From Frigidibacter oleivorans (GTDB taxonomy: Bacteria; Pseudomonadota; Alphaproteobacteria; Rhodobacterales; Rhodobacteraceae), in contig NZ_RJRZ01000002.1 in assembly GCF_003993775.1 (NCBI RefSeq), positions 62,001 through 126,000 on the forward strand: 64,000 bases of DNA, written 5' to 3'. The notes below the pieces were generated by a model that had not been told where the DNA came from, did no database searches, and worked only from the letters and a program-made list of their open reading frames with translations. Within the stretch, counting starts at the first letter, position 1, and each line of letters opens with the position of its first letter. The position numbers and the translations under genes are program-made. Shown here in pieces: positions 15,736 to 29,084 of the stretch.

Positions 15736-15795
15736 GGAGGACTCTCCCGTGTTGATCGCGGCAACCGCGACAGGTCAGCGAAGACGAAAAGGGGA

Positions 15796-15826
15796 GGGGC
15801 GGACATCCGGTCCCGGAGCCCGCCCC
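15796..15826 (-). terminator. Intercistronic hairpin between tctC and tctAB
   Basis: In the 113-bp gap, minus-strand GGGGCGG pairs with CCGCCCC around a GC-rich loop and is followed by CTCCCCTTTTCG. Partial termination here would give more binding protein than permease, a known arrangement for solute-binding-protein transporters. The hairpin is visible; attenuation is inferred. Confidence 0.45.
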
Positions 15827-15848
15827 CGTCAGATATCGAGGGGCGCGA

Positions 15849-16955
15849 TCAGTCCTCGCCCAGCTTCACACCGTATTCGGTGGCCAGCGTCTCGGCCACT
15901 CGGGTGCGCAGTTCGGGCGCGATGGTCGTGCCGCTTTCGAACAGGGCCTGCGCCAGCGGACCGGTGACCTGCCCGTAGGTGCCCAGCACCGTTTCGGCAT
16001 TGGCCTGATAGTCCGGGTCGGCCTTCATGTCCTCGAAGGCCTTCTGGTAGGCGGCCACGATCTCGTCCGGGGTGTCCTTGGGCAGGAACACCATCTTCTG
16101 CGCGGGGAACCCGGCGGTGAAGAAGGCGAAATAGGCCTCATAGTCCGGGCCCGAGGGCGGGGCGCCGGTCAGCGTCTCGTAAGCCTCGACGAAAGAGGGC
16201 AGGTCCGGGAAGGTGGGGTCGCGCACGACCTCGCCGGCCTCGTTCAGGACGCCCCAGCTGAACAGCGGCACGGCCTCGCCGGCATCGACCAGCGGCTGGA
16301 CGTTCTTCAGATAGGCCGAGGAGGTCTGGTAGTCGATATTGACCTCGCCCCGCTCGAAGGCCAGCCGGCCATCGCCGCGGCCCTTGAAGCCGAAGACGTG
16401 CTGCACGTCGAGACCCATCAGCCGGAAGCCCAGCAGCGGCACGAGATCCAGCGAGGTCGCGCCCTGGCTGGCATAGACCAGCTCCTTGTCCTTCAGCATC
16501 GCGATGTCCTGCGGACCGGTCAGCCCGAGATCCGGCGTCGTGTAGACCACGCCGCCGGTGGGGCCGGCCATCGCGATCTTCCAGTCCTTGTATTCATAGC
16601 GCACCCGCGGGTCGCCCAGCAGGTAGGGGAACTGGGTCGAGCCCGAGGTGCCGAGGATCATCAGCCCGTCGGGCTTGGCCCGCGCGGCGAAGAGGTTGGT
16701 CCCCTTGGTGGACCCGCCACCCGGTTCGTTCACCACGATCACCGTCGGCTGGCCCGGCAGATATTTGGACAGCAGCGGCGCGTTGAACCGCGCCCAGGTG
16801 TCCGATCCGCCACCCGCCGAGAACGGGATGATCCATTCGATCGTCTCGCCCGAAAAATCGACTTCGGCGGCGGCCGGTCCGGCCAGGCCGAGTGCGACCG
16901 CGCAAGCCGCGACACCAAGTGCAAAGCGGCGCGTGAAACCCACTGGTTCAGACAT
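15849..16955 (-). CDS. tctC: TctC/Bug-family tricarboxylate-binding periplasmic protein
   Basis: A 368-aa secreted binding protein. From ATG 16955 (AGGAGG just upstream) it begins with an RRF motif and a hydrophobic stretch ending GLAGPAAAE, a signal peptide cleaved at about residue 32; the upstream frame to 17051 has no start support. The mature part opens IEWIIPFSAGGGSDTWAR, the Bug/TctC ligand loop, then VVNEPGGGSTKGTNLFAA. It captures the carboxylate for the TctA-TctB fusion. It is divergent from tctD, which should activate it. At 368 aa it is longer than the common 320-aa Bug proteins, as seen in a subset of TctC proteins. Confidence 0.9.
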   Translation of the reverse strand: MSEPVGFTRRFALGVAACAVALGLAGPAAAEVDFSGETIEWIIPFSAGGGSDTWARFNAPLLSKYLPGQPTVIVVNEPGGGSTKGTNLFAARAKPDGLMILGTSGSTQFPYLLGDPRVRYEYKDWKIAMAGPTGGVVYTTPDLGLTGPQDIAMLKDKELVYASQGATSLDLVPLLGFRLMGLDVQHVFGFKGRGDGRLAFERGEVNIDYQTSSAYLKNVQPLVDAGEAVPLFSWGVLNEAGEVVRDPTFPDLPSFVEAYETLTGAPPSGPDYEAYFAFFTAGFPAQKMVFLPKDTPDEIVAAYQKAFEDMKADPDYQANAETVLGTYGQVTGPLAQALFESGTTIAPELRTRVAETLATEYGVKLGED

Positions 16956-17064
16956 TCTTGTTCCTCCCTCTCTTGTCAGGTGCGCCCCGCAATGGCGTTC
17001 GGGCGCGATGCCGTTCTTGATTTCTCCTCCGAAGAACAGCCTGATGCACACCTAAGGGAGAATT

Positions 17065-17080
17065 CTGTCGGAAACCTGTC
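17065..17080. promoter_or_regulatory. Candidate TctD direct-repeat box
   Basis: CTGTC occurs at 17065-17069 and again at 17076-17080, an 11-bp period expected for tandem binding of an OmpR-type regulator. It lies in the 144-bp gap between divergent tctC and tctD, 20 bp before the tctD ATG. Binding by TctD is inferred. Confidence 0.4.
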
Positions 17081-17099
17081 TGCCATAAAAGGGCTTTTG

Positions 17100-17765
17100 A
17101 TGCGGATCGTTCTGGTGGAAGACAACCCGAGCCTGGCCAAGGGCATTGAAAATGCTTTGAAAGATCAGGGTCATGCCGTGGATCATCTCGAAGACGGCCT
17201 CGACGGCGATGCCTTCCTGTCGCGCCAGCGCGCGGATGTGGCCATCGTGGACGTCAACCTTCCGCGGCTGTCGGGCCTGGAAATCATCCGGCGGGCACGG
17301 GCGCGGCGCGACACCATCCCCATCCTGATTCTGACCGCACGGGGCAAGACGTCGGAACGGGTCGAGGGGCTGGATGCCGGAGCGGACGACTACCTCGTGA
17401 AACCCTTCGACATGGAAGAACTCGTCGCCCGCCTGCGCGCCCTCGCGCGCCGCCGCCCGGAAGTGGCCCTCTCGCGCGAGCCGGTGGGACAGCTGGTCTA
17501 TGACCGGGAACAGCGCAGCGTCTGGCATGGCGAGCGTAGCCTGAACCTGCCCCGGCGCGAACTGGCGCTGTTCGAGGTGCTGCTGGAGAACCGGGGCCGG
17601 CTGATCGAGAAGGACCGGATCGCCGACGCGCTGTACGGCACCGGCGCGCCGGTAGAGCCGAACGCGGTGGAACTGCTGGTGTCCCGCTTGCGGCGCAAGA
17701 TCGACGGGTCCGGCGTCACCATCCGCACCGCCCGCGGCCTTGGCTACATGCTGGACGAAGGATGA
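17100..17765 (+). CDS. tctD: OmpR-family response regulator TctD
   Basis: A 221-aa two-component response regulator. The receiver domain (1-115) has the acidic pocket E7/D8, the phospho-acceptor D51 (VAIVDVNLP), T83-type LTARG and K104 (DDYLVKPFD). The C-terminal winged helix (about 130-221) ends VEPNAVELLVSRLRRKI and TARGLGYML, the OmpR/PhoB DNA-binding form. The real start is ATG 17100; the open frame upstream runs over tctC on the other strand. It overlaps tctE by ATGA. Together with TctE it should switch on the divergent tctC-tctAB genes when tricarboxylate is present, as in Salmonella tctDE. Confidence 0.9.
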   Translation: MRIVLVEDNPSLAKGIENALKDQGHAVDHLEDGLDGDAFLSRQRADVAIVDVNLPRLSGLEIIRRARARRDTIPILILTARGKTSERVEGLDAGADDYLVKPFDMEELVARLRALARRRPEVALSREPVGQLVYDREQRSVWHGERSLNLPRRELALFEVLLENRGRLIEKDRIADALYGTGAPVEPNAVELLVSRLRRKIDGSGVTIRTARGLGYMLDEG

Positions 17766-19156
17766 TGCGGTGGCACCTGTCGCTGCGGGCGCGACTGTTC
17801 CTGCTGCTGATCCTGCCGCTGATCCTGGTGGCGGCGGTCGCGTCCTCCGCCCGCTACCTGTCGGCGAACAGGCTGTCGCAGGAACTGTACGACAACACCC
17901 TGCTGGCCGTGGCGCTGACCATCTCGCGCGATGTGGTGATCTCGGAAGGCGACATCCTGACCGAAACGCTGCTGGAAGACCTCACCGCTGCGCTGGGCGA
18001 TCCGGTCTATTACCGGATCACCGGGCCGGACGGCAGCTTCGTCACCGGCTATTCCGACCCGCCCGATCCGCCGGAGGGGATGGTGCAGGACAGCGCCTCG
18101 CCGATGTTCTACGACAGCGTGTCGCTGGGCCAGACGGTCCGCGCCGTCACCCTGCGCGAGTTCATCGGCGAGCCGCGGTTCGGCGGCTGGGTCACGGTCG
18201 AGGTCTGGCAGACCACCACGCAGCGCCGCGCCCTGTCACGGGAACTGGTCGCGCAGTCCATCATGCTGCTGGGGTCGGTGATCGTCACCGCCGCGCTGGT
18301 CCTGTGGTTTGCCATCCAGCTGGGCCTGAAGCCGCTGCTGGAACTGCGCGAGGCCATCGGCCAGCGCAGCGCCGACGACCTGCGCCCGATCCGCCGCTGG
18401 GTGCCGCCCGAACTGCGCCCGCTGGTGCGCACGCTGAATTCGCTGTTCGACCGGCTGTCGCGGGCCATCGCGCTGCGCGACGGCTTCATCTCGGACGCGG
18501 CGCATCAGATGCGCAATCCGGTGGCCGCGATCCAGAGCCTGGCCGAGGCCGCGATCAGCGCTCCCGACGAGGCCGAACTGCGGTCGCGCGTGCAGGACGT
18601 GGCGGAAAGCGCGCGGCACACCAGCCGGCTGACCTCGCAACTGCTGTCGCTGGAACGGGTGCGCGGCCGCAGCCTCAGGCTGCTGGCCAAGCCGCTGGAT
18701 CTGGTGGCGCTGGTGCGGAACAAGGTCCGCCCCTTCGCGGAAACCCAGCTGCGGCGCGGTGTCGATGTGGGCTTCTCGGTCACCGGCACGCCGGAGCCGG
18801 TAGCCTGCGATCCGGTCCTGATCGAGGAACTGGTGACCAATATCCTCGACAATGCGGCGAAATACGCGCTGCGCCCCGGCGGCCAGATGGATGCCGTGGT
18901 GTCCTTCGAGCCCGATGTCGTCCGCCTGCGGTTCAGCGACGACGGCCCCGGCATCCCCGAGGATCTGCGCGAGCGGATCTTCGACCGCTTCTTCCGCATC
19001 GACACGGATCATGCCTCGGGATGCGGCCTTGGCCTCGCGATCGTGCATGACGTGGCACAGGGCCATGGCGGCACCGTGCGCTGCCTGTCGAACGAGAAGG
19101 GCTCGACCTTCGAGGTGGTGCTGCCCCGGACGATCCCGGACGACGTGGCGGCCTAG
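17762..19156 (+). CDS. tctE: Sensor histidine kinase TctE
   Basis: A 464-aa membrane kinase for TctD. Two transmembrane helices (about 8-28 and 163-187) flank a periplasmic sensor region of about 130 residues, fitting direct sensing of an external carboxylate. The cytoplasmic part has a linker, then the H-box FISDAAHQMRNP with His248 as phosphorylation site. ATP-binding N, G1 and G2 boxes follow (ILDNAAKYAL, DDGPGIPEDL, GCGLGLAIV). It overlaps tctD by 4 bp and ends 44 bp before the convergent IclR gene. It is 464 aa, close to the usual TctE size. Confidence 0.9.
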   Translation: MMRWHLSLRARLFLLLILPLILVAAVASSARYLSANRLSQELYDNTLLAVALTISRDVVISEGDILTETLLEDLTAALGDPVYYRITGPDGSFVTGYSDPPDPPEGMVQDSASPMFYDSVSLGQTVRAVTLREFIGEPRFGGWVTVEVWQTTTQRRALSRELVAQSIMLLGSVIVTAALVLWFAIQLGLKPLLELREAIGQRSADDLRPIRRWVPPELRPLVRTLNSLFDRLSRAIALRDGFISDAAHQMRNPVAAIQSLAEAAISAPDEAELRSRVQDVAESARHTSRLTSQLLSLERVRGRSLRLLAKPLDLVALVRNKVRPFAETQLRRGVDVGFSVTGTPEPVACDPVLIEELVTNILDNAAKYALRPGGQMDAVVSFEPDVVRLRFSDDGPGIPEDLRERIFDRFFRIDTDHASGCGLGLAIVHDVAQGHGGTVRCLSNEKGSTFEVVLPRTIPDDVAA

Positions 19157-19200: not shown

Positions 19201-19968
19201 TCAGCGCGGCCGGGCGCCCAGCGCGTTGGAGATGTCGCCGGTCAGGGCCAGCAGCCTGTGCACCAGCTGCGGATCCGGCGGCGTGGTGATGTGCTGCACG
19301 CTGCCGATCAGGCCGATGCTGCCGACAAGCCGCTGTTCATAGTTGAAGATCGGCGCCGCGATCGCGTTCACGCCAAGCAGGCTTTCCTCGGGCGCGGCCG
19401 CATAACCGAGACGCCGGACCTCGGCAATCTCGGCGGCCAGACGGGCGGGATCGGTCACGCTGCGGGTGGTGATCGCCGGTAGCGGTGCCGCCAGGGCCCG
19501 CGACAGCGCGTCCGCGGGACCGAAGGCGAGGTAGATCTTGCCCTGGGCGGAGGCGTGCAACGTCAGTTCGCTTCCGGCGCGCACGCCGATCTCGATCTGA
19601 TGGTTGCTCGGGACCGTGGCCACCACATAGGCCGACCGCGGGCTGGGGGTGCTGAGCACGACCGCCAGCCCCAGTTCGTTGCGGGCCGCCTGCATCAGCG
19701 GCAGCGCGATGGCCGCCACATCATCCAGATCGGGCGCATTGCGCGCCAGAAGCCAGGTCTTCGGACCCAGACGATAGCGCGACGTCGCCGGATCCTGCGC
19801 GACGAAGCCGCGGTCGATCAGGGTCTGCAGATGCTTGAACACAGCGCTCTTGGCGATTCCCACCGCCTGCGCGATCTGCGTCACCCCCGCACCCTGCGCC
19901 TCGAACGCAACAAATTCGAGGATCTGCAGGCAGATGTCCGCTGCCTTAACCCCTTCGCTGACCGTCAT
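19201..19968 (-). CDS. IclR-family transcriptional regulator
   Basis: A 255-aa regulator with an N-terminal winged helix (VTQIAQAVGIAKSAVFKHLQTLIDRGFV, about 29-56) and an IclR effector domain (HASAQGKIYLAF, ESLLGVNAIAAPIFNYEQRLVGSIGLIG). I use ATG 19968; a GTG at 19980 would add four residues. It is transcribed away from the TRAP/catabolic operon that starts at 20105. A strong promoter followed at once by a perfect palindrome lies between them, so repression relieved by the substrate is the simplest model. The effector is unknown and probably is the compound carried by the TRAP system. Confidence 0.88.
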   Translation of the reverse strand: MTVSEGVKAADICLQILEFVAFEAQGAGVTQIAQAVGIAKSAVFKHLQTLIDRGFVAQDPATSRYRLGPKTWLLARNAPDLDDVAAIALPLMQAARNELGLAVVLSTPSPRSAYVVATVPSNHQIEIGVRAGSELTLHASAQGKIYLAFGPADALSRALAAPLPAITTRSVTDPARLAAEIAEVRRLGYAAAPEESLLGVNAIAAPIFNYEQRLVGSIGLIGSVQHITTPPDPQLVHRLLALTGDISNALGARPR

Positions 19969-20028
19969 ATTCCCTGCCACTTGTCGTTCTGATCCGCCTG
20001 CGGCGCCACGGTCGCCCGCATCACCGCA

Positions 20029-20104: not shown

Positions 20105-21097
20105 ATGACCCGTCTTCTGGCACTGTCGGCGCTGCTGCTCGGCTCGACCGCCGTCCACGCCTTCGCCGAACCCGTCACCCTGCGCCTCGGCCATGCCGTC
20201 TTCGAGGCACACCCGAACCACGATACGGCGGTCCGCTTCAAGGAAGCCGTCGAGCGCCTGACGAATGGCGAGGTCAAGATCGAGATCTTTCCCGCCCGCC
20301 AGCTGGGTGACGTGAAAGAGCTGATGGAGGGCGTCCAGCTCGGCACCGTCGACATGACCGTCAACGCCTCTTCCGCCTTTGCGACGCTCGAGCCTTCGGT
20401 CGATGCCTTCCAGCTGCCCGGCGTGATCCCGAGCTATGAAGGATTCGCGCAACTCGCCGTCTCGGAACCGGCGCGCGAGATCATGGACACGCTGGAAAAG
20501 CACGGAATGATCGCGCTCGGCCTCTATGAGGGCGGCCAGCGCCACTTTCTGACGGTGGGCGAGCCGGTCACCGCGATGGAGGGTTTCAAGGGCCTGAAGA
20601 CCCGCGTGGCCCCGGTGAAGCTGTTCCTCGATGTCTGGTCCGCGCTCGGCACCAATCCGACGCCGATGGCCTATGGTGAGGTCTACTCCGCCCTGGAAAC
20701 CGGCACGCTCGATGCCGTCGAGATCAACCTGACCTCGATCGAATCCGAAAAGTTCTACGAGGTCGCCAAGGGCGTCACCCTGACCGGCCACTATTTCTGG
20801 CCGAGCTTCCTGCTGGTCAACAAGGATGTGTTCGACGGCCTGACGCCCGAGCAGCAGGCCGCGATCAAGGAGGCCGCGGTGGAGATCACCGAACCGCAGG
20901 TGATGGCCGTCAAGGCGCTGGACGAGAAGGTCGTGGCGCATCTCGAAGAGCTGAACATCCCGGTGATTACCCCCGACGCGGCCTTTGCCGCCGCCTTCGA
21001 CGATGCCGTGGCCCCGGTCGTCGCGACCTACCGCGACGCAGACCCGCTGATCGGCGCCTTCGTCGATGCGGCCGAAGCGCTGCCGCGCACGAACTGA
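20105..21097 (+). CDS. TRAP transporter substrate-binding protein DctP
   Basis: A 330-aa periplasmic receptor. The signal peptide (1-21) ends VHAFA. The mature part begins VTLRLGHAV and carries the DctP helix GFKGLKTRVAP, whose arginine binds the carboxylate of the ligand, then NPTPMAYGEVYSALETGTLDAVE (about 180-202), the typical family region. It should capture an organic acid for DctQ and DctM directly downstream. It is the first gene of an operon that runs without a clear terminator to the GMC oxidoreductase at 29084. Ligand identity cannot be read; the enzymes downstream suggest a hydroxy- or oxo-carboxylate. Confidence 0.92.
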   Translation: MTRLLALSALLLGSTAVHAFAEPVTLRLGHAVFEAHPNHDTAVRFKEAVERLTNGEVKIEIFPARQLGDVKELMEGVQLGTVDMTVNASSAFATLEPSVDAFQLPGVIPSYEGFAQLAVSEPAREIMDTLEKHGMIALGLYEGGQRHFLTVGEPVTAMEGFKGLKTRVAPVKLFLDVWSALGTNPTPMAYGEVYSALETGTLDAVEINLTSIESEKFYEVAKGVTLTGHYFWPSFLLVNKDVFDGLTPEQQAAIKEAAVEITEPQVMAVKALDEKVVAHLEELNIPVITPDAAFAAAFDDAVAPVVATYRDADPLIGAFVDAAEALPRTN

Positions 21098-21149
21098 CCC
21101 AACACCGGCGGGGTCCGCCCCGCCCGACGCTTTATCGGGAGGAGAACCG

Positions 21150-21635
21150 ATGCACCCCTTGCTGAGCGGCTATCGCAGGGCCGTGGAGACCGTCTGCATC
21201 GCAGGCATCTGCATCGTCGCCATCCTCGGCGGGTTGCAGGTGTGGTTTCGCTATGTCTCGGGCAATTCTCTGGTCTGGTCCGAAGAGGTCATGCGCCTGT
21301 CGATGATCTGGACGGTCATGCTGGGTTCGGGCCTCGCCTATTCGCGGGGCCAGTTTCTGGGCATGCAGTTCCTGGTCGAGGCGCTGCCCCAACCGCTGGC
21401 ACGGGCCTGCAATCTGCTCTCCGCCCTGCTCGTCGTCGGCTTTCTGGCGGCGATCGCCTGGTTCGGCTGGAAATTCGCCTGGAAGACCCGCCTGCAACTG
21501 TCCAGCACGCTCGGCTATTCGCTGATCTGGCTGCATGTGTCGATTGTCGTCGGCTCGATCCTGATGGCGGCCCATGTGCTTGCCGAGGCGATCTGGGGCA
21601 GACGGCCCCTGCTGGCCGAGGAGGCGATCCGATGA
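21150..21635 (+). CDS. TRAP transporter small membrane subunit DctQ
   Basis: A 161-aa protein with four transmembrane helices (about 14-32, 48-66, 86-108, 128-148). The family pattern FRYVSGNSLVWSEEVMRLSMIW (27-48) is present. The start at ATG 21150 has GGGAGGAG upstream; the frame opens earlier within dctP. It overlaps dctM by ATGA. DctQ couples the DctP receptor to the DctM channel. Confidence 0.92.
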   Translation: MHPLLSGYRRAVETVCIAGICIVAILGGLQVWFRYVSGNSLVWSEEVMRLSMIWTVMLGSGLAYSRGQFLGMQFLVEALPQPLARACNLLSALLVVGFLAAIAWFGWKFAWKTRLQLSSTLGYSLIWLHVSIVVGSILMAAHVLAEAIWGRRPLLAEEAIR

Positions 21636-22912
21636 TCTGGCTCGGGTCGATCTTCGTCTTCACGCTGCTCATCGGCGTGCCGATCGCCTTCGTGCTGGGG
21701 ATCAGCGGCCTTGGCTATTTCGTCATGACCGACCAGACGAAGTTCCTGATCGCACTGCCGCAGCGGATGATCGCGGGCATGGACCAGTTCGTGCTGCTGG
21801 CGATACCGCTGTTCGTGCTGGCGGGCAGCATCATGGATGTGGGCGGACTGACGCGCCGCCTGGTCGGGCTGGCAAACTCTGTCGTCGGGCGGTTCCGGGG
21901 CGGATTGTCGCTGACCGCCGTCTGGGGGGCGTTCCTGTTCGGCGGCGTCTCCGGCTCGGCCGCCGCCGATGCCGCGGCGCTCGGCACCGTGCTGGTTCCC
22001 GACATGAAGCGGCAGGGCTATGACGAGGATTATTCCGCGGCGCTCATCGCCGTGTCGTCGCTGATGGCGCCGCTGGTGCCCCCGTCCATCGCGATGATCA
22101 TCTACGGCGCGCTGTCCGGCACCTCGATCTCGCAGCTGCTGATCGCGGGCATCGTGCCGGGGGTGATGCTGGCGGCGATCCTGTCCTGCTATGCGATCTG
22201 GGTCGCGCATCGCGAGCAGTATCCGCGGGCCGAGGCCCTGCCCCCGGCCGAGATCCTGCGCAACGCGGTGCAGGCGATCCCGGTCATGCTGCTGCCGGTC
22301 ATCATCGTGGTGGGCATCCGCGGCGGCATCTTCACCGCGACCGAGGCCGCGGCCGTCGCCGCCATCTACGCGCTGCTCGTGTCAGGCTTCGTCTACCGGG
22401 CGCTCAGCTGGCGGTTCCTGCGCGAGGCGCTGCTGTCGACGGCCATCATCTCGTCCGCGATCTACATCCTGATCGCTATGGCCAATATCGCGGCCTTCAT
22501 CTTCGCGATCGAGCAGTTGCCGCAAAAGGCGGTCGCCGGCCTGACGACGGTCACGGACAACCCGCTGCTGATCCTTCTGATGGTCAATATCATCCTGCTG
22601 ATCCTCGGCATGTTCCTCGACACGATCGGGATCCTGATCCTGACCGTTCCGGCACTGACGGCCATCGGCACGACGCTGGGAATGGACCCGGTGCATCTGG
22701 GGGTAATGGTCGTCTTCAACGTGCTGATCGGTTTCGTCACGCCGCCGGTCGGCCTGTGCCTCTTCGTCATTGCCGGCGTCACCGGCCGCCCGATCGAGAG
22801 GATCAGCCTCAAGGCGCTGCCGATGATCGCGCTGGCGCTGATCGTGCTCGCCATCGTCGCGCTGGTCCCGGATGTGGTGCTGTTCCTGCCCCGGGCCATC
22901 GGGGGGGCATGA
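21632..22912 (+). CDS. TRAP transporter large permease DctM
   Basis: A 426-aa ion-transporter-type permease with about twelve hydrophobic segments. The family signatures AIPLFVLAGSIMDVGGLTRRL (about 54-74), [18 protein letters not shown] (near 108-125), PPSIAMIIYG and GFVTPPVGLCLFV are in order. It uses a sodium gradient to drive uptake. The start at ATG 21632 overlaps the dctQ stop, and its stop almost touches the next gene, tying transport to the flavoprotein and downstream enzymes in one transcript. Confidence 0.93.
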   Translation: MIWLGSIFVFTLLIGVPIAFVLGISGLGYFVMTDQTKFLIALPQRMIAGMDQFVLLAIPLFVLAGSIMDVGGLTRRLVGLANSVVGRFRGGLSLTAVWGAFLFGGVSGSAAADAAALGTVLVPDMKRQGYDEDYSAALIAVSSLMAPLVPPSIAMIIYGALSGTSISQLLIAGIVPGVMLAAILSCYAIWVAHREQYPRAEALPPAEILRNAVQAIPVMLLPVIIVVGIRGGIFTATEAAAVAAIYALLVSGFVYRALSWRFLREALLSTAIISSAIYILIAMANIAAFIFAIEQLPQKAVAGLTTVTDNPLLILLMVNIILLILGMFLDTIGILILTVPALTAIGTTLGMDPVHLGVMVVFNVLIGFVTPPVGLCLFVIAGVTGRPIERISLKALPMIALALIVLAIVALVPDVVLFLPRAIGGA

Positions 22913-22914
22913 CG

Positions 22915-23988
22915 ATGACGCGTCTGGAAACAAGGGTGGGCCGCCTCAGGCTGAAGAACCCCGTCATCGCCGCGGCGGGCGAGCACATGATCGACGCGGC
23001 CGGCATCCGGTCGGCGATCCTGGCGGGCGCCGGTGCGGTGGTGGGCAAGTCCACCAACGAATCCGAGGCCGCGAAGGACCAGCTGACCCGCGCGGAATAT
23101 GTGGCGCTGGACCCGGACTGGCGGCCCGTGACATGGGGCGCCGACGCGCCCCGCGCGACGGTGCTGACCCGGTCGGGCCTGACCCCGCTGCCCTTCGACG
23201 CCTGGCTCGCCCAATGCGTCGAAATGGATGCCTTCGCCGGTCTGCACGACTGTCTCTATGTGCCGTCGCTGATCCTCGCCGCCCCCGGACCGGCGGTGGA
23301 GATGGCGCGCGCGGTCCAGGCCGCGGGCCTGCGGGTGCTCGAATTCAACATCGGCACCCCCTATGCCAGCCAGGCGGCGACAGGCGCGGTCTCGACCGAA
23401 CTGTCGCCCGACCGCGTCGGCGACCTGACGCGGATGATGGTGCAGGCCGTGGACATTCCGGTCTGGGTCAAGATCACCGGGCAGAGCGAACGCGTTCCCG
23501 ACCTTGCCGCCGCGGCCTTCGCGGCCGGTGCGGAAAGCGTGGTGATGGCCGGCCGCGCATTGGGGATGCTGCCCGATCTCGACACGATGGCGCCGATGCT
23601 GGGAACCAGCTGCGGAATCGGCGGCTGGTGGAACCTGCCGCTGACCTGCCACTGGCTCGCCACCACCCGCGCGGCCCTGGGGCCGGGGCCGAGCCTCATC
23701 GGCATCAACGGCGCCACGAACGGCGAGGACGTGGCGCGAATGCTGCTCGCCGGCGCCTCTGCCGTGGGCCTGTCGTCCGAAGTCATGCTGCGCGGATGGC
23801 CGGTGCTGACCGAGGCCGTCGCCGAACTCGACCGCTATTGCACCGCCAAGAACCTGACCGCGGCGGATCTGGTCGGCCGCGCGGGCGATGCGCGCAAACG
23901 CTTCGCCGACATGCCGAAACTCGACGACCACTGGCGCAACTTCATTCCCGCGCCCTCTGACGCGGCTCTCACGGAGACCACGACATGA
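22915..23988 (+). CDS. Dihydroorotate/dihydropyrimidine dehydrogenase-like FMN protein (PreA-like, no Fe-S domain)
   Basis: A 357-aa TIM-barrel flavoprotein of the DHODH/PreA superfamily. LRLKNPVIAAAGEHM (about 10-24) is the usual entry to the barrel, NIGTPYAS corresponds to the substrate-binding NxxxP loop, and VWVKITGQSE supplies the FMN lysine. INGATNGEDVARMLLAGASAVGL near the end is the phosphate-binding region. It is not PyrD: it lacks the canonical PyrD sequence motifs and also the C-terminal ferredoxin domain of PreA. An ATG at 22909 touches the dctM stop, but the G-rich ribosome site fits 22915 better. It probably reduces or oxidises a C=C or C=N bond in the imported compound. Substrate unknown. 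Confidence 0.75.
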   Translation: MTRLETRVGRLRLKNPVIAAAGEHMIDAAGIRSAILAGAGAVVGKSTNESEAAKDQLTRAEYVALDPDWRPVTWGADAPRATVLTRSGLTPLPFDAWLAQCVEMDAFAGLHDCLYVPSLILAAPGPAVEMARAVQAAGLRVLEFNIGTPYASQAATGAVSTELSPDRVGDLTRMMVQAVDIPVWVKITGQSERVPDLAAAAFAAGAESVVMAGRALGMLPDLDTMAPMLGTSCGIGGWWNLPLTCHWLATTRAALGPGPSLIGINGATNGEDVARMLLAGASAVGLSSEVMLRGWPVLTEAVAELDRYCTAKNLTAADLVGRAGDARKRFADMPKLDDHWRNFIPAPSDAALTETTT

Positions 23989-24890
23989 CCGATCTCACTG
24001 CCCGCGTCGACGCGCTGATGAAAGGCGCGGTCGACCTGCATATCCATTCGGGGCCCTCGCTGCATCCGCGCAAGGTGGACCATATGGAGGTGCTGCGCGC
24101 CGCGGATGCCGCGGGCATGCGCGCGATCCTTCTGAAGGATCACTACTATCCCACGATGCCGATCACCCGGCTGATGAACGACAACCTCGGTTGCCAGACC
24201 GAGGCGATCGGCGCCATCGTGTTGAACAACCCGGTCGGCGGGCTGAACCCTTCTGCCGTGGACTATGCGCTGAAACAGGGCGCGCGCGTGGTGTGGATGG
24301 CGACGGCCCATGCCAGGAACCATCTGGACCACGAGGCCAAGGAAGCCGATTTCAAGAACAAGTTCCCGGTCAATTCCAAGAAGACCGTGGCCGCGATCCC
24401 GGCGACCCTGACCGACGAGGCGGGCGCGGTGCGTGACGAGGTGAAGCTGATCCTCGACCTGATCGCGGAAAACGACGCGGTCGTCTCTGCCGGGCACCAC
24501 CACATCAGCGAGGCGTTCCCGTTCTACGAGGAAGCGAAGGCGCGCGGCGTGACGCGACTGTTCCTGAACCATCCGACCTACGTCAACGAAGGCAGCCTCG
24601 AAGACATCAGGTCCCTCGTGGCGATGGGCGTGAAGATGGAACATTCGATCTGCATGTTCATCCCCTCGACCTTCCACCTCTTCGATGACAACCACCTGCG
24701 GGCGGTGATCGCGGCGGCGGGGGTCGAGAACACCTTCTTCGGCTCCGACCTCGGCCAGAAGAACAACCCCACCCCGGTCGAAGGCATGCGCTCGATGATC
24801 GAGCTGCTGATCAAGCTCGGCCATGACGATGCCGAGGTGCGGATGATGACTTCGACCGTCGCGAGGGAACTGGCGGGGATCGAGGGATGA
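23985..24890 (+). CDS. DUF6282-like amidohydrolase-fold protein
   Basis: A 301-aa protein resembling the DUF6282 group of amidohydrolase-like metal enzymes. An HxH metal motif opens the barrel (VDLHIHSGPS, about 16-25), a lysine-histidine pair follows (LLKDHYYPT, 47-55), then SAGHHHISEA (about 168-177), LNHPTYVNEG (about 194-203) and a late aspartate in FFGSDLGQ (about 247-254), as expected for a binuclear or mononuclear hydrolase. The reaction has not been established for the group as far as I know. It overlaps both neighbours by 4 bp, so it is translated together with the PreA-like enzyme and the aldolase. A hydrolytic or decarboxylation step on the operon's substrate is the likely role. 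Confidence 0.7.
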   Translation: MTDLTARVDALMKGAVDLHIHSGPSLHPRKVDHMEVLRAADAAGMRAILLKDHYYPTMPITRLMNDNLGCQTEAIGAIVLNNPVGGLNPSAVDYALKQGARVVWMATAHARNHLDHEAKEADFKNKFPVNSKKTVAAIPATLTDEAGAVRDEVKLILDLIAENDAVVSAGHHHISEAFPFYEEAKARGVTRLFLNHPTYVNEGSLEDIRSLVAMGVKMEHSICMFIPSTFHLFDDNHLRAVIAAAGVENTFFGSDLGQKNNPTPVEGMRSMIELLIKLGHDDAEVRMMTSTVARELAGIEG

Positions 24891-25630
24891 GCCTGCGCAG
24901 GCGCATCCTTGCGGGCGAGCGGCTGGTGGGTTGCTTCGTCAAGACGCCGAGCCCGCAGGTGATCGAGTTGCTGGGTCTGGGCGGCATGGATTTCGTGGTC
25001 GCCGACCGGGAACATGCACCCATCGGGACCGGTGCGCTCGACCTGATGACGCTGGCTGGCCGGTCGGTCGGCCTTCCGGTCCTGATCCGGTCCCGCAATG
25101 CAGAGGGGGCGGAAATCTGGCCCGCGCTCGACATGGGCTGCGCGGGGGTGATGGTGCCGCATGTCCGCAGCGCGGCCGGGGCCGAGGCGGCGGCGGGCGC
25201 GATGAAATACGGGCGCGGCCGCGGCTTCTCGCCCTCCGGCCGTGCCGGGGCCTATGGCACGATGCCGGGGGCGGACTATCGCCGCCGGCAGGATGACGAG
25301 GGGGTCTTCCTCGCCCAGATCGAGGATGCCGCCGCGCTCGACCACCTGGACGCGATTGCGGCGGTGCCCGAGGTCGATGTCCTGTTCATCGGCCCGCAGG
25401 ACCTGTCGCTGTCGCTGGGCTGCGCCGTGACCGCGCCGGAGATGACCGCCGCAACCGAGGCGGTCGTTTCCGCTGCCCGCCGCGCGGGCAAGGCTGCCGG
25501 ACTGTTCGTCGCCGATCCGGCCACCATCGCGGGTCATGTCGCCGGCGGCATCACCCTTTTCGTCTGCGGCTCCGACCAGGGGCTGCTCATCGGCGGCGCA
25601 AGGCGGCTGATGGCCGCCGCGCGCGCCTGA
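24887..25630 (+). CDS. HpcH/HpaI-family class II aldolase
   Basis: A 247-aa metal-dependent pyruvate or oxaloacetate aldolase, related to HpaI, GarL and RhmA. Key residues are visible: H43 (DREHAP), R70 (IRSRNAEG), E146 (AQIEDAAA) and D172 (GPQDLSLSLG); E146 and D172 bind the metal. GCAGVMVPHVRSA (84-96) is a family landmark. The RYG region of typical members is changed to GAYGTMPGADYRR, hinting at a different aldehyde partner. It probably cleaves a 2-oxo-4-hydroxy acid late in the pathway, giving pyruvate and an aldehyde for the downstream dehydrogenase. It overlaps the DUF6282-like gene by 4 bp. Confidence 0.88.
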   Translation: MSLRRRILAGERLVGCFVKTPSPQVIELLGLGGMDFVVADREHAPIGTGALDLMTLAGRSVGLPVLIRSRNAEGAEIWPALDMGCAGVMVPHVRSAAGAEAAAGAMKYGRGRGFSPSGRAGAYGTMPGADYRRRQDDEGVFLAQIEDAAALDHLDAIAAVPEVDVLFIGPQDLSLSLGCAVTAPEMTAATEAVVSAARRAGKAAGLFVADPATIAGHVAGGITLFVCGSDQGLLIGGARRLMAAARA

Positions 25631-25646
25631 CCGCAAGGAGATCACC

Positions 25647-25994
25647 ATGAACATCCATCAGATCGACTGGTCCCGGCTGGAGTGGAAGACCATCCGCCCC
25701 GGTGTCGAGCAGAAGGCGTTTTCCGGGCAGGGGGCGACCATCGCGCTGCACCGCCTGCAGCCGCAGCACGAACCGAAACCGCACAAGCATGACAACGAGC
25801 AGATCGCCTACATCGTCTCCGGCACCTGCGACTTCCATGTCGGCGACAGCGTGACCCGTCTCGGACCCGGCGGGATCATCGTGGTGCCCGGCGGGGTCAT
25901 GCACCATGCCGTGGTCGTCGGCGACGAAGAGGTGATCAACCTCGACGTCTTCACCCCCGCCCGGCCCGAATACGCCCCCCTGCCCGAGGCCTGA
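25647..25994 (+). CDS. Small cupin-domain protein
   Basis: A 115-aa single-domain cupin. The metal site is H46, H48, Q52 (PHKHDNEQIAYIVSG) in motif 1 and H86/H87 (PGGVMHHAVV) in motif 2; a glutamine or E51 replaces the usual glutamate position. The size matches small cupins that act as isomerases, lyases or accessory stabilisers in catabolic operons. It starts 16 bp after the aldolase stop with AAGGAG upstream. A precise role cannot be assigned. Confidence 0.82.
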   Translation: MNIHQIDWSRLEWKTIRPGVEQKAFSGQGATIALHRLQPQHEPKPHKHDNEQIAYIVSGTCDFHVGDSVTRLGPGGIIVVPGGVMHHAVVVGDEEVINLDVFTPARPEYAPLPEA

Positions 25995-26075: not shown

Positions 26076-27503
26076 ATGACCGACCTTCTTTTCATCGACG
26101 GCCAGTGGTCCGCCGGTTCCGGCACCCGCCGCGGCGATGTCTTCGATCCCGCCACCGGCGCGGCGATCGGGCAGGTGCCCTTCGCCGAAAAGGCCGACCT
26201 CGACCGTGCCCTTGCCGCCGCGGGCCGCGCTTTCCCGGCCTGGGCCGCCACCTCGGCCCATGACCGGGCGGGGTTGCTGAAGAAGGCCGCCGCCATCGCG
26301 CGCGGCAAGGCCGAGGAGATGGCGCAGGCGATCAGCCGCGAGCAGGGCAAGCCGCTGTCCGAAGCCCGGATGGAAGCAGGTGGCGCGGGCGATCATATCG
26401 AATGGTATGCCGAGGAAGCGCGGCGCACCTATGGCCGGATCATTCCCGCGCGCGCCCCGCAGGTGATGCAAAGCGTCATCCTTGAACCCGTGGGTCCCGT
26501 CGCGGCCTTCAGCCCCTGGAACTTCCCGGTCGGCCAGCTGGTCCGCAAGATCGCGGGCGCGCTGGCGGCCGGGTGCACGATCATCGCCAAGGGCCCCGAG
26601 GAAACGCCGACCTGCATCGCGCTGCTCGTCAGATGCTTCGAGGAGGCGGGCGTCCCCGCCGGTGTCGTCAACCTCGTCTTCGGCGTCCCGTCCGAGATTT
26701 CCGCCCATCTGCTCCCCTCGCCCGTCATCCGCAAGGTATCCTTCACCGGCTCGGTCCCGGTGGGGCGGCATCTGGGCGCGATGGCCGCGCAACACCTCAA
26801 ACGCACGACGATGGAGCTGGGCGGCCACGCGCCCTTCATCGTCTGCGACGACGCGGATATCGAGGCGGTCAGCAGCCTCGGCGTCGGGCTGAAATTCCGC
26901 AATGCCGGGCAGGTCTGTGCCTCGCCGACCCGGTTTCTGGTGCAGGACGCGGCGTTCGAGGGCTTCCTCGACCGGTTCGCGACCAAGGCGCAGGCGCTGA
27001 AACTGGGCGCCGCGGCCGAAGAGGGCGTGCAGATGGGCCCCCTTGCCCATGGCCGCAGGCTCGACGCGATGCAGGATTTCGTGGCCGATGCCGTGGCGCA
27101 GGGCGCGCGGCTGGTCACGGGCGGCAAGCGCCGCGGCAATGAGGGCTGGTTCTTCGAGCCTACGGTTCTGGCGGATGTCCCGCCTTCGGCCCGGATCATG
27201 TCGGAAGAGCCCTTCGGCCCGATCGCCGTCGTCAACCGCTTCGCCGACCTGCCCGACGCCATCGCCGAGGCGAACCGCCTGCCCTATGGCCTGGCCGCCT
27301 TCGGCTTCTCCACGCTGGCCGCGCGCACCCATGAGATGACCGTCGGGATCGAGACCGGGATGCTGTCGATCAACCATTTCGGCCTCGCCGCGCCCGAGAC
27401 CCCCTTCGGCGGGGTCAAGGATTCGGGCCACGGGTCCGAGGGCGGGTCGGAAGGGATCATGGCCTACCTGACTACGAAATTCGTCTCGCAGCGAAACGGC
27501 TGA
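26076..27503 (+). CDS. NAD(P)-dependent aldehyde dehydrogenase (succinate-semialdehyde dehydrogenase-like)
   Basis: A 475-aa ALDH superfamily enzyme. Catalytic residues are present: N149 (SPWNFP), K172 (IIAKGPEE), E247 (TMELGGHAP) and C281 (NAGQVCASPTRF). The ASPTRF context resembles GabD and other semialdehyde dehydrogenases. In this operon it should oxidise the aldehyde produced by the aldolase or by the GMC enzyme to an acid. KGPEE replaces the common KPAEE or KPSE at the NADP/NAD-binding site, a mild oddity. It is 81 bp after the cupin and 3 bp before the GMC gene. Confidence 0.9.
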   Translation: MTDLLFIDGQWSAGSGTRRGDVFDPATGAAIGQVPFAEKADLDRALAAAGRAFPAWAATSAHDRAGLLKKAAAIARGKAEEMAQAISREQGKPLSEARMEAGGAGDHIEWYAEEARRTYGRIIPARAPQVMQSVILEPVGPVAAFSPWNFPVGQLVRKIAGALAAGCTIIAKGPEETPTCIALLVRCFEEAGVPAGVVNLVFGVPSEISAHLLPSPVIRKVSFTGSVPVGRHLGAMAAQHLKRTTMELGGHAPFIVCDDADIEAVSSLGVGLKFRNAGQVCASPTRFLVQDAAFEGFLDRFATKAQALKLGAAAEEGVQMGPLAHGRRLDAMQDFVADAVAQGARLVTGGKRRGNEGWFFEPTVLADVPPSARIMSEEPFGPIAVVNRFADLPDAIAEANRLPYGLAAFGFSTLAARTHEMTVGIETGMLSINHFGLAAPETPFGGVKDSGHGSEGGSEGIMAYLTTKFVSQRNG

Positions 27504-27506
27504 GGG

Positions 27507-29084
27507 ATGGAGAGCTTCGACCATATCGTCGTCGGCGCAGGTTCGGGCGGCGCGACCGTCGCCCGGCGTCTGGTCGATGCCGGTCGATCGGTCCTGCTGC
27601 TGGAGGCGGGGCCGAGCGACCGCGTGCCCTTCGTCCATATCCCCGGTGCCTTCGTGAAGGTCATCGGCACCCGGCGGACCTGGCCCTATGCGACCGAGCC
27701 CGAACCGGGCGCGGCAGGGCGGGTCATGCATGTGCCGCAGGGCCGGATGCTGGGGGGAAGCTCGTCGGTCAACGCGATGATCTACATCCGGGGCGACGCG
27801 CAGGATTACGACGACTGGGCTGCGGCCGGGGCGGCAGGCTGGTCCTATGCCGATGTGCTGCCCTTCTTCCGCAAGGCCGAGGCGAACCAGCGCCTGGCCG
27901 ACGACTATCACGGCACGGACGGCCCGCTGCGCGTCTCGGACCCCGCCTATCGCCATCCGCTGGCCTATGCGTTCCTGCGGGCCGCCCAGCAGACCGGACT
28001 GCCGCTGACTCACGATTTCAACGGCTCCCGGCAGGAGGGCGTGGGTTTCTACCAGACCACCACCTTCGACGGGCGCCGCGGTTCGACCGCCGTCTGCTAT
28101 CTCAACCCCGTGCGGGGCAATCCCCGCCTGACCATCCGCACCGGAGCGGCGGTCGAACGCCTGATCCTTCAGGATCGGACCGTGACCGGGGTCGAATGCC
28201 GGATGGCCAACGGCCAGCGCCTGCGCTTCGCCGCGCGGCACGAGGTCGTGCTGGCCGCGGGCGCGCTGTCCTCGCCCAAGATCCTGATGCTGTCGGGGAT
28301 CGGGGCAGAGGCCGACCTGGCCCCGCATGGCATCGCGGTCCGTCACAACCTGCCCGGCGTCGGTCAGGGGTTTCAGGATCATGTCGCGGCTTCGGTCTAT
28401 GGCGGCCTTCGCGATCCGATCGGCGTTTTCGGCGCCGACCGGGGGATGAAGGCGGTGCGGCACATGCTGCAATACCTGCTGACGCGCACCGGGCTTCTGA
28501 CCTCCAATGTCATCGAATGCGGGGGCTTCATCGACACGGCCGGGACCGGCAGGCCCGATGTGCAGCTGCATGTCGTGCCCACCATGCTGGGCGATGTCGA
28601 CCGCCCCGCGCCCGAGGGCCACGGCATCTCGCTCAACCCCTGCTGCCTGCGCCCCACGTCGCGCGGGTCGATGACGCTCCGCAGCGCGGATCCGCAGGCA
28701 TTGCCGGTGGTGCGGGCAATGAACCTGACGACGCGCGAGGATGTGGACACGGTGATGCGCGGGGTCGCGCTGTGCCGTCGCATCCTCAAGGCGCCCGCAC
28801 TGGCCGCGCTGGTGCGCGAGGAGCTGGCCCCCGGGCCGTCCGGGGACACGCCCGAGGGGCTGGAGGATCACGCGCGGCGGTTCGCCAAGACGGTCTACCA
28901 TCCGTCCTGCACCGCGCGCATGGGGACGGATGCGATGGCGGTGACCGATTCCGAGCTGCGGGTGCGGGGCCTGAACGGCCTGCGGATCGCCGATGCTTCG
29001 GTCATGCCGAAACTTGTCAGCGGCAACACCAATGCGCCCTGCGTGATGATCGGCGAACGCTGCGCCGACTTCCTGCTGCGGTAG
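27507..29084 (+). CDS. GMC-family FAD alcohol dehydrogenase (choline dehydrogenase-like)
   Basis: A 525-aa flavoprotein oxidising an alcohol to an aldehyde or ketone. The FAD fold DHIVVGAGSGGATVARRL (5-22), GMC signature 1 (GRMLGGSSSVNAMIYIRG, 79-96) and signature 2 (GALSSPKILMLSGIG, 252-266) are present. The catalytic pair H465 (YHPSCTARMG) and N509 (SGNTNAP) aligns with H466 and N510 of choline oxidase. HPSCTARMG in place of HPVGTCKMG is the form found in broad alcohol dehydrogenases rather than BetA. It is the last gene of the IclR-controlled operon; the reduced flavin probably passes electrons to the respiratory chain. Confidence 0.9.
   Translation: MESFDHIVVGAGSGGATVARRLVDAGRSVLLLEAGPSDRVPFVHIPGAFVKVIGTRRTWPYATEPEPGAAGRVMHVPQGRMLGGSSSVNAMIYIRGDAQDYDDWAAAGAAGWSYADVLPFFRKAEANQRLADDYHGTDGPLRVSDPAYRHPLAYAFLRAAQQTGLPLTHDFNGSRQEGVGFYQTTTFDGRRGSTAVCYLNPVRGNPRLTIRTGAAVERLILQDRTVTGVECRMANGQRLRFAARHEVVLAAGALSSPKILMLSGIGAEADLAPHGIAVRHNLPGVGQGFQDHVAASVYGGLRDPIGVFGADRGMKAVRHMLQYLLTRTGLLTSNVIECGGFIDTAGTGRPDVQLHVVPTMLGDVDRPAPEGHGISLNPCCLRPTSRGSMTLRSADPQALPVVRAMNLTTREDVDTVMRGVALCRRILKAPALAALVREELAPGPSGDTPEGLEDHARRFAKTVYHPSCTARMGTDAMAVTDSELRVRGLNGLRIADASVMPKLVSGNTNAPCVMIGERCADFLLR

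Follow-up and report, generated by a model that had tools for sequence, protein, structure and literature searches.

A flavoprotein gene and a DUF6282 gene are linked across genomes in a putative catabolic operon of Frigidibacter oleivorans

Here we describe two overlapping genes in a 64,000-nucleotide stretch of Frigidibacter oleivorans DNA (contig NZ_RJRZ01000002.1, positions 62,001 to 126,000; hereafter the window). One encodes a flavoprotein of the dihydroorotate dehydrogenase (DHODH)/PreA superfamily (22915..23988, + strand) and the other a DUF6282 protein with a predicted amidohydrolase-superfamily barrel (23985..24890, + strand). A first reading of the letters (the original prediction) had proposed them as a new enzyme pair. 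We find that the linkage of the two genes is real and not a matter of chance, and that they seem to belong to a catabolic pathway that is probably undescribed. The linkage is well supported and the chemistry is unproved: from the conserved linkage, folds and residue patterns that we observed, we infer all of the reactions proposed below, including the original order of reduction followed by ring opening, and we regard the arrangement as a variant of the published flavoprotein–amidohydrolase pairing. We lean, tentatively, towards an operon that would break down a sugar-acid-like carboxylate, in which flavin redox chemistry on a cyclic derivative would be followed by lactone opening by DUF6282, tautomerisation and aldol cleavage.

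In the window, the flavoprotein and DUF6282 genes share a 4-bp ATGA junction (23985–23988), as do the DUF6282 gene and the aldolase gene that follows it (24887–24890), exactly as first reported. Scanning contigs with the flavoprotein gave 46 loci, of which L052, a 28% partial match that is not a true relative, was dropped; the remaining 45 span up to 10 kb on either side (less where a contig ends), and their neighbours were scored by tblastn. In 39 of the 45, a DUF6282 gene is found no more than 10 kb from the flavoprotein gene, in six arrangements. It is directly downstream on the same strand in 24 loci, in 23 of which the nearest in-frame DUF6282 start falls between −8 and +23 bp relative to the stop codon of the flavoprotein gene (L016 yielded no such start); a candidate, unannotated start gives the exact 4-bp overlap in 13 of the 24. 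The 15 rearranged loci have a cupin gene in between (L018, L033 and L050), the order DUF6282–HpcH–flavoprotein (L019, L021 and L037), TctC genes in between (L020, L022, L025, L029 and L030), the order DUF6282–TctC–flavoprotein (L046 and L048) or the two genes on opposite strands (L009 and L010). As for the six loci that lack DUF6282, the genomes of L036 and L044 carry a DUF6282–HpcH–cupin set elsewhere (L116 and L117), and the L041 contig stops within the flavoprotein gene, with the same genome's DUF6282–HpcH–cupin set opening another contig (L096). The other three are metagenome bins: no DUF6282 was found in the genomes of L042 and L045, and that of L040 gave only a 25% relative, with no HpcH by tblastn.

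Plasmid records give the same picture. Wherever a close flavoprotein relative (61–85% identity) was present, DUF6282 (71–85%) started within about 60 bp (nine of nine records, one of which, NZ_CP025013, is L035). Because the 45 loci had been found through the flavoprotein itself, genomes were also drawn regardless of it. Among 292 genomes drawn from the order, the flavoprotein occurred in five and DUF6282 in eight above the cut-off (a ninth fell below it); all five flavoprotein genomes had both, with the matches 70–90 bp apart on one strand in four and about 11 kb apart in G570. Among 385 genomes drawn from the class, the flavoprotein occurred in two and DUF6282 in 18, and both flavoprotein genomes had DUF6282, which in G210 lies on the same contig about 4 kb away on the opposite strand. 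Naive hypergeometric probabilities, which ignore shared ancestry, are 3e-9 for the order draw and 2e-3 for the class draw; the window genome is counted in both draws, and two of the five order-draw genomes come from one genus. The original prediction had named a lack of conserved adjacency as what would count against it; adjacency proved to be conserved in the loci, the plasmids and the unselected draws, which rules out a chance overlap of unrelated genes.

The idea of an enzyme pair therefore stands as far as linkage goes, but the conserved unit is larger: DUF6282 with an HpcH-type aldolase, often with a cupin, and also occurring without the flavoprotein. Besides DUF6282, the 45 loci carry IclR (42), a cupin or bicupin (39), an HpcH-type aldolase (23), an aldehyde dehydrogenase (ALDH; 16), DctP (15), TctC (12), a class-III aminotransferase (11), a PF04909-type protein (9), a glucose–methanol–choline (GMC) oxidoreductase (8) and RidA (7). 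On a tree of 58 DUF6282 proteins (without L053–L057, L064, L095 and L111–L115), those linked to the flavin mononucleotide (FMN) protein form two main groups and a small one. The label for this link needs six changes on the tree, against a mean of 15.5 when shuffled, and the link has therefore been gained or lost more than once. An inner clade of 48 rows includes eight, from seven genomes or records, that lack the link; the long end branches of L058, L059 and L102, among these eight, make their placement less sure. Each of the eight has a gene for an HpcH-type aldolase at most a few kilobases away, in some cases on the opposite strand (detected by tblastn for five rows and by annotation for L058–L060, which were picked from the match list), and six have a bicupin. 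The flavoprotein was not found in the four genomes that hold the five rows scanned by tblastn, nor, for L058–L060, in the fetched stretch or in a search of plasmid records. Flavoprotein genomes that lack a close DUF6282 are rare (3 of 45). Given that DUF6282–HpcH occurs without the flavoprotein and the reverse is rare, the flavoprotein looks like a feeder step, added to an older DUF6282–aldolase(–cupin) core. Against this, an HpcH- or RraA-type aldolase was detected by tblastn in 8 of 19 class-draw DUF6282 stretches and not in the other 11, which are mostly distant DUF6282 copies, some of them short (G075, L090, is left out of the 19).

The flavoprotein has the fold that was first ascribed to it, a barrel of the DHODH/dihydropyrimidine dehydrogenase (DPD) type. 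It matches PF01180 (E 3e-11, 43.4 bits; gathering cut-off 27), over residues 131–308 only; hhalign against 30 PreA proteins aligned residues 3–349 (probability 99.4, E 5e-21); and an AlphaFold2 model (predicted local distance difference test, pLDDT, 87.5) retrieved DPD first and class 1 DHODH next in Foldseek. Residues are numbered from an ATG at 22909 (359 aa), although we prefer 22915 to that in-frame ATG as the start codon because annotated relatives begin at the matching residue. Scores fall far under the cut-off for the PreA model NF006183 (59.6 bits versus 335), and likewise below it for the DHODH class 1 models PRK07259 (90.8 versus 269) and TIGR01037 (85.2 versus 270) and for NF005741, the PRK07565 dihydroorotate dehydrogenase-like model (82.7 versus 303). 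In a tree of 30 proteins, which took 16 of the 45 flavoproteins and 6 of the 30 PreA proteins, the family groups as a single clade (99/98 support), which a long stem separates from PreA and PyrD. An ordinary PyrD, which the original prediction had also discounted, is rejected on the sub-cut-off scores and the separate clade. The C-terminal ferredoxin region of PreA is, as had been noted, missing: it is unmatched in hhalign and absent from 45 aligned flavoproteins (alignment A2; the window and 44 loci, without L041, which is cut inside the gene). The placement of the PRK07565-type L166 beside the flavoprotein clade involves long branches and was not used.

The residue pattern sets the family apart. 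The FMN-site lysines K47 and K188, together with N147, are the same as in PreA and class 1B PyrD, and T/S/C87, S89, T150, G215 and R216 occupy the PreA N, E, C, N and T positions; across the 45 aligned sequences no variation occurs at S89, T150, G215 or R216, nor at R88. We take PreA N77, E79, N136, N204 and T205 to be pyrimidine contacts and C139 to be the catalytic cysteine, with roles carried over from DPD, in which the contact N668 is equivalent to N147. At these six positions the 16 family rows of the tree have T/S/C, S, N (kept), G, R and T, respectively, and PDB sequences of the DPD mutants C671S and C671A align the mutated residue with T150. By alignment, then, the catalytic cysteine and four of the five pyrimidine-contact positions are replaced and N147 is kept; the class 1B PyrD residues N, C and N are likewise lost at positions 87, 150 and 215. 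This pattern suggests a non-pyrimidine substrate, probably a carboxylate, and the fold and conserved residues predict that the flavoprotein binds FMN. The idea that it merely substitutes for a missing PreA was rejected: 26 of 50 flavoprotein-bearing genomes (L018's genome not counted) also hold PreA above the cut-off. The window genome has no PreA above the cut-off. It does encode a 365-aa PreA-like protein (L097:5316-6413, G000:C33; NF006183 283 bits versus 335) that stops short of the ferredoxin region and retains the N, E, N, C, N and T residues.

The DUF6282 protein matches PF19799 (E 3e-67, 226.5 bits; gathering cut-off 26.8). Its predicted model (pLDDT 94) matched the amidohydrolase superfamily in both Foldseek and VIA, with dipeptidases, dihydroorotases, TatD and a lactonase among the VIA matches listed (50 of 1000; Z 18–21, root-mean-square deviation about 3) and allantoinase also among the structural matches listed; phmmer against the PDB gave no match at E up to 1. 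In a residue alignment of 58 members (36 FMN-linked, 8 near and 14 distant sequences, without L053-L057, L095, L096, L100, L105, L113 and L115-L117), H21 and D255 are present in all 58, H19 and H171 in 57, and K51 and H196 in 55. Alignment A1 comprises the window and 35 of the 39 loci (without L013, L015, L024 and L034). In the model, the conserved residues sit at the end of, or just past, barrel strands 1, 2, 5, 6 and 8, with the amidohydrolase-superfamily pattern of HxH (H19 and H21) on strand 1, H171 on strand 5, H196 on strand 6 and D255 on strand 8. Of the metal motifs first listed (HxH, KDH, GHHH and D), HxH, K51, H171, H196 and D255 are thus conserved, but D52 and H173, like H220, are found mainly in the near clade, and H172, the middle histidine of GHHH, occurs in only 21 of 36 FMN-linked copies. 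The model gives DUF6282 the barrel of the amidohydrolase superfamily, complete with its usual HxH/H/H/D residues, and we presume the protein to be a metal-dependent hydrolase. The family is found in bacteria and archaea; a 31% identical protein is encoded by a 4.2-kb record named 'Bacteriophage sp.' (MT839600.1:1716-2519), perhaps bacterial DNA within a phage collection. Annotated records of relatives name the flavoprotein 'dihydroorotate dehydrogenase' or 'hypothetical protein' and give the hydrolase its DUF label, and we found nothing on DUF6282 or the gene combination in the open-access literature searched.

The surrounding operon runs from a tripartite ATP-independent periplasmic (TRAP) transporter (20105–22912) through flavoprotein, DUF6282, aldolase, cupin and ALDH to GMC, all on the + strand, which bears out the carboxylate-uptake context proposed for the pair. 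The transporter consists of the solute-binding protein DctP (20105..21097; PF03480, E 7e-69), the small permease DctQ (21150..21635, start approximate; assigned from operon position and relatives' annotation) and the large permease DctM (21632..22912, start approximate; assigned from tblastn matches in related loci and relatives' annotation). An IclR-family regulator gene (19201..19980, − strand; PF01614 and PF09339) diverges from it. No PreT- or PyrK-like gene was recognised on reading the open reading frames at 15–34 kb; only eight of the encoded proteins were scanned with Pfam and NCBIfam hidden Markov models, without a genome-wide search.

The closest solved relatives of these neighbours lean towards sugar acids. 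For DctP, 4x8r is the closest PDB entry by sequence and 4n8y and 7bbr are also among the six best matches; these were bound to glucuronate, galacturonate and 2-keto-3-deoxy-D-gluconate, respectively, according to PMC11668362. The aldolase (HpcH/HpaI type; 24887..25630; PF03328, E 2e-23) is closest to 1dxe, a 2-dehydro-3-deoxygalactarate aldolase. The small cupin (25647..25994; PF07883) has weak PDB matches, with KdgF (5fq0, E 3e-9) about equal to BacB and below the uncharacterised 4e2g. The ALDH (26076..27503; PF00171) matches 9zh8, 5vbf and the alpha-ketoglutaric-semialdehyde dehydrogenase 5x5t at E about 1e-160 and groups with succinate- and alpha-ketoglutaric-semialdehyde dehydrogenases, and the last gene (27507..29084; PF00732 and PF05199, with PDB matches) encodes a choline-dehydrogenase-like, GMC-family flavin adenine dinucleotide (FAD) oxidoreductase.

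Two distant DUF6282 genes have contexts that, by analogy, would fit lactone opening. On a Thermus oshimai plasmid (L062:5351-10017), a catechol 2,3-dioxygenase-type gene and a GntR gene precede DUF6282, which overlaps a GalB-like gene (matching 4-oxalmesaconate hydratase 5cgz, E 2e-55) and is followed by genes for a 4-carboxy-4-hydroxy-2-oxoadipate (CHA) aldolase above the cut-off and a 6-phosphogluconate dehydrogenase-like protein; here DUF6282 may stand in for LigI, the 2-pyrone-4,6-dicarboxylate hydrolase. The second DUF6282 gene of the window genome (L104; G000:C36:127000-141000) lies near genes of the aconitase family, a tripartite tricarboxylate transporter, a 2-hydroxyacid dehydrogenase and an RraA-like aldolase. 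The LysR regulator at L104 has PcaQ as its best match, under the cut-off.

On the reading that we favour, the TRAP system would import the acid, and GMC and ALDH, in the loci that have them, would oxidise an alcohol or aldehyde group or clear an aldehyde product. The flavoprotein would carry out flavin redox at a C–C bond of a cyclic carboxylate, preferably the reduction of an unsaturated lactone, with R88 and R216, judged by sequence alignment, perhaps replacing the PreA/PyrD pyrimidine contacts. DUF6282, as a metal-dependent barrel hydrolase, would next open the lactone. The resulting open-chain keto acid would be tautomerised or isomerised by the cupin and then cleaved to pyruvate and an aldehyde, either by the HpcH aldolase or by an aldolase encoded elsewhere. 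Lactones are likelier substrates than the cyclic imides or dihydropyrimidines that had also been suggested for assay, because the pyrimidine-contact positions and the catalytic cysteine are replaced and the neighbours lean to sugar acids.

Several observations weigh against this scheme. The reductive direction is unproved because no reductase partner was recognised, and an oxidation or a redox-neutral flavin reaction fits as well. The likeness of DctP assigns no ligand, since the same three receptors are listed as homologues of an isethionate receptor in PMC11668362, and sialic-acid and isethionate receptors are also among the DctP matches listed (60 of 75). HpcH, ALDH and GMC occur in only 23, 16 and 8 of the 45 loci, and those steps are therefore not obligatory within the locus. 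The Thermus dioxygenase is of the catechol 2,3 type and not a protocatechuate 4,5-dioxygenase, the GntR gene stands between it and DUF6282, and the Thermus DUF6282 shares only 33% identity with that of the window. RidA, aminotransferase and PF04909 genes are present in many rhizobial loci and could point to a nitrogen-containing substrate. Finally, the retention of N147 together with the weak transporter evidence makes our preferred reading slightly less likely and a nitrogen-ring substrate slightly more so.

Among the alternatives, the strongest, which we consider unlikely, is that the flavoprotein works oxidatively, or as an oxidase that uses O2 or a different acceptor, to form the ring or lactone subsequently opened by DUF6282. 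In protocatechuate 4,5-cleavage, LigC similarly produces the lactone on which the hydrolase LigI acts. The feeder position of the flavoprotein is compatible with this, as is the lack of a recognised PreT, PyrK or ferredoxin partner in the 15–34-kb reading and the PreA alignment. However, DHODH-fold enzymes act on C–C bonds adjoining a carbonyl; oxidising a hemiacetal would be unprecedented for this fold, and the catalytic cysteine is replaced by threonine. Other electron routes have been described in two reports, one on a ferredoxin-dependent relative without the FAD domain (PMC7332683) and one on fungal dihydrouracil oxidases, which illustrate that class-I DHODH-like proteins can be oxidases (PMC9585004).

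We judge it improbable that, as originally proposed, the pair reduces and then hydrolyses a nitrogen heterocycle (a cyclic imide, hydantoin, pyridone or other lactam). A flavoprotein with a cyclic amidohydrolase is a published 'reaction module' (PMC4016543). N147 is kept, dihydroorotases and allantoinase are among the DUF6282 structural matches listed, and RidA (7), PF04909-type (9) and class-III aminotransferase (11) genes recur in the 45 loci. These points are countered by the replaced cysteine and four of five contacts, with S89, T150, G215 and R216 invariant (n = 45), and by the sugar-acid leaning of the aldolase, ALDH and transporter; the annotations viewed include no ureidase, although no search was aimed at one. 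Least probable of all is that DUF6282 is a decarboxylase or isomerase and not a ring hydrolase: the amidohydrolase superfamily does hold decarboxylases and a lactone isomerase, but the position of DUF6282 beside GalB/CHA-aldolase and aconitase/RraA-aldolase genes resembles the LigI slot.

The sugar-acid-lactone reading can be set against known systems. PreA/DPD with dihydropyrimidinase has the same flavin barrel (homologous over residues 3–349) and likewise couples a flavoprotein gene to that of an amidohydrolase-superfamily hydrolase, whereas the window pair has no ferredoxin domain or recognised PreT, has lost the cysteine and four of five contacts, uses DUF6282 as the hydrolase and sits in an aldolase/cupin context. 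Class 1B DHODH (PyrD–PyrK) can also occur with a hydrolase, and behind TRAP genes in the case of the L168 TRAP–PyrK–PyrD–Zn-hydrolase cluster; the window flavoprotein differs in having no recognised PyrK, in the loss of N, C and N at 87, 150 and 215 and in its strongly supported separate clade. The LigI–GalB–CHA aldolase series provides the working analogy of an amidohydrolase-fold lactone hydrolase, a hydratase/isomerase and a pyruvate aldolase, but DUF6282 is another branch of the superfamily, the aldolase is of the HpcH type, a cupin takes the place of GalB and the window operon has no aromatic ring-cleavage gene. Barba et al. (2013) described flavoprotein–cyclic amidohydrolase reaction modules and two uncharacterised families, X1, with hydantoinase, carbamoyltransferase and xanthine dehydrogenase neighbours, and X2, with pyruvate-ferredoxin oxidoreductase and PreT (PMC4016543). 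Both are DHODH/DPD-superfamily dehydrogenases, X1 also occurs with a cyclic amidohydrolase, and the module idea covers such pairing; their reported contexts were not seen in our annotated stretches, the genes of which were partly scanned. Oxoprolinase-type hydantoinase A/B genes do lie on the other strand at L040.

It is possible, though rather doubtful, that the window pair represents a third flavoprotein–amidohydrolase module, alongside those of pyrimidine anabolism and catabolism. Here an undescribed enzyme clade would carry out flavin chemistry on lactones of sugar acids, with no dedicated subunit for electron transfer, and would pass its product to a DUF6282 lactonase in an undescribed sugar-acid pathway. 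The linkage gives the flavoprotein and DUF6282 one shared, testable context and suggests a function for a DUF family; it may show a pyrimidine-type redox/hydrolysis module reused on another substrate class, and, if this is true, a lactonase would be the first known function of DUF6282.

Further observations concern related genes. A family of about 300 aa with no Pfam match and a cupin-like HHHDDFEQ motif takes the place of the small cupin in 15 of the 45 loci; members of this bicupin-type family (L020:12085-12984, L019:6439-7344, L030:13532-14431, L055:10755-11657 and L060:3152-4075) are 53–62% identical to that of L020. The record of L057 (NZ_CP084753.1), flagged UNVERIFIED_ORG as Roseateles, has an operon like those of the rhizobial loci. 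PyrK–PyrD–Zn-hydrolase clusters that include a phosphoribosyltransferase gene, of the orotate or another type, occur at L168:1-6368, L163 and L164, and clusters of the L168 type possibly serve orotate uptake and breakdown. At L167:835-6843 a PyrD–PyrK pair lies within a Rieske dioxygenase/cupin/asparaginase cluster and has F and A at positions 87 and 216 instead of N and T. In the window itself, by reading, TctA- and TctC-like genes (− strand) at 13741–19156 adjoin genes for a response regulator and a sensor kinase (+ strand).

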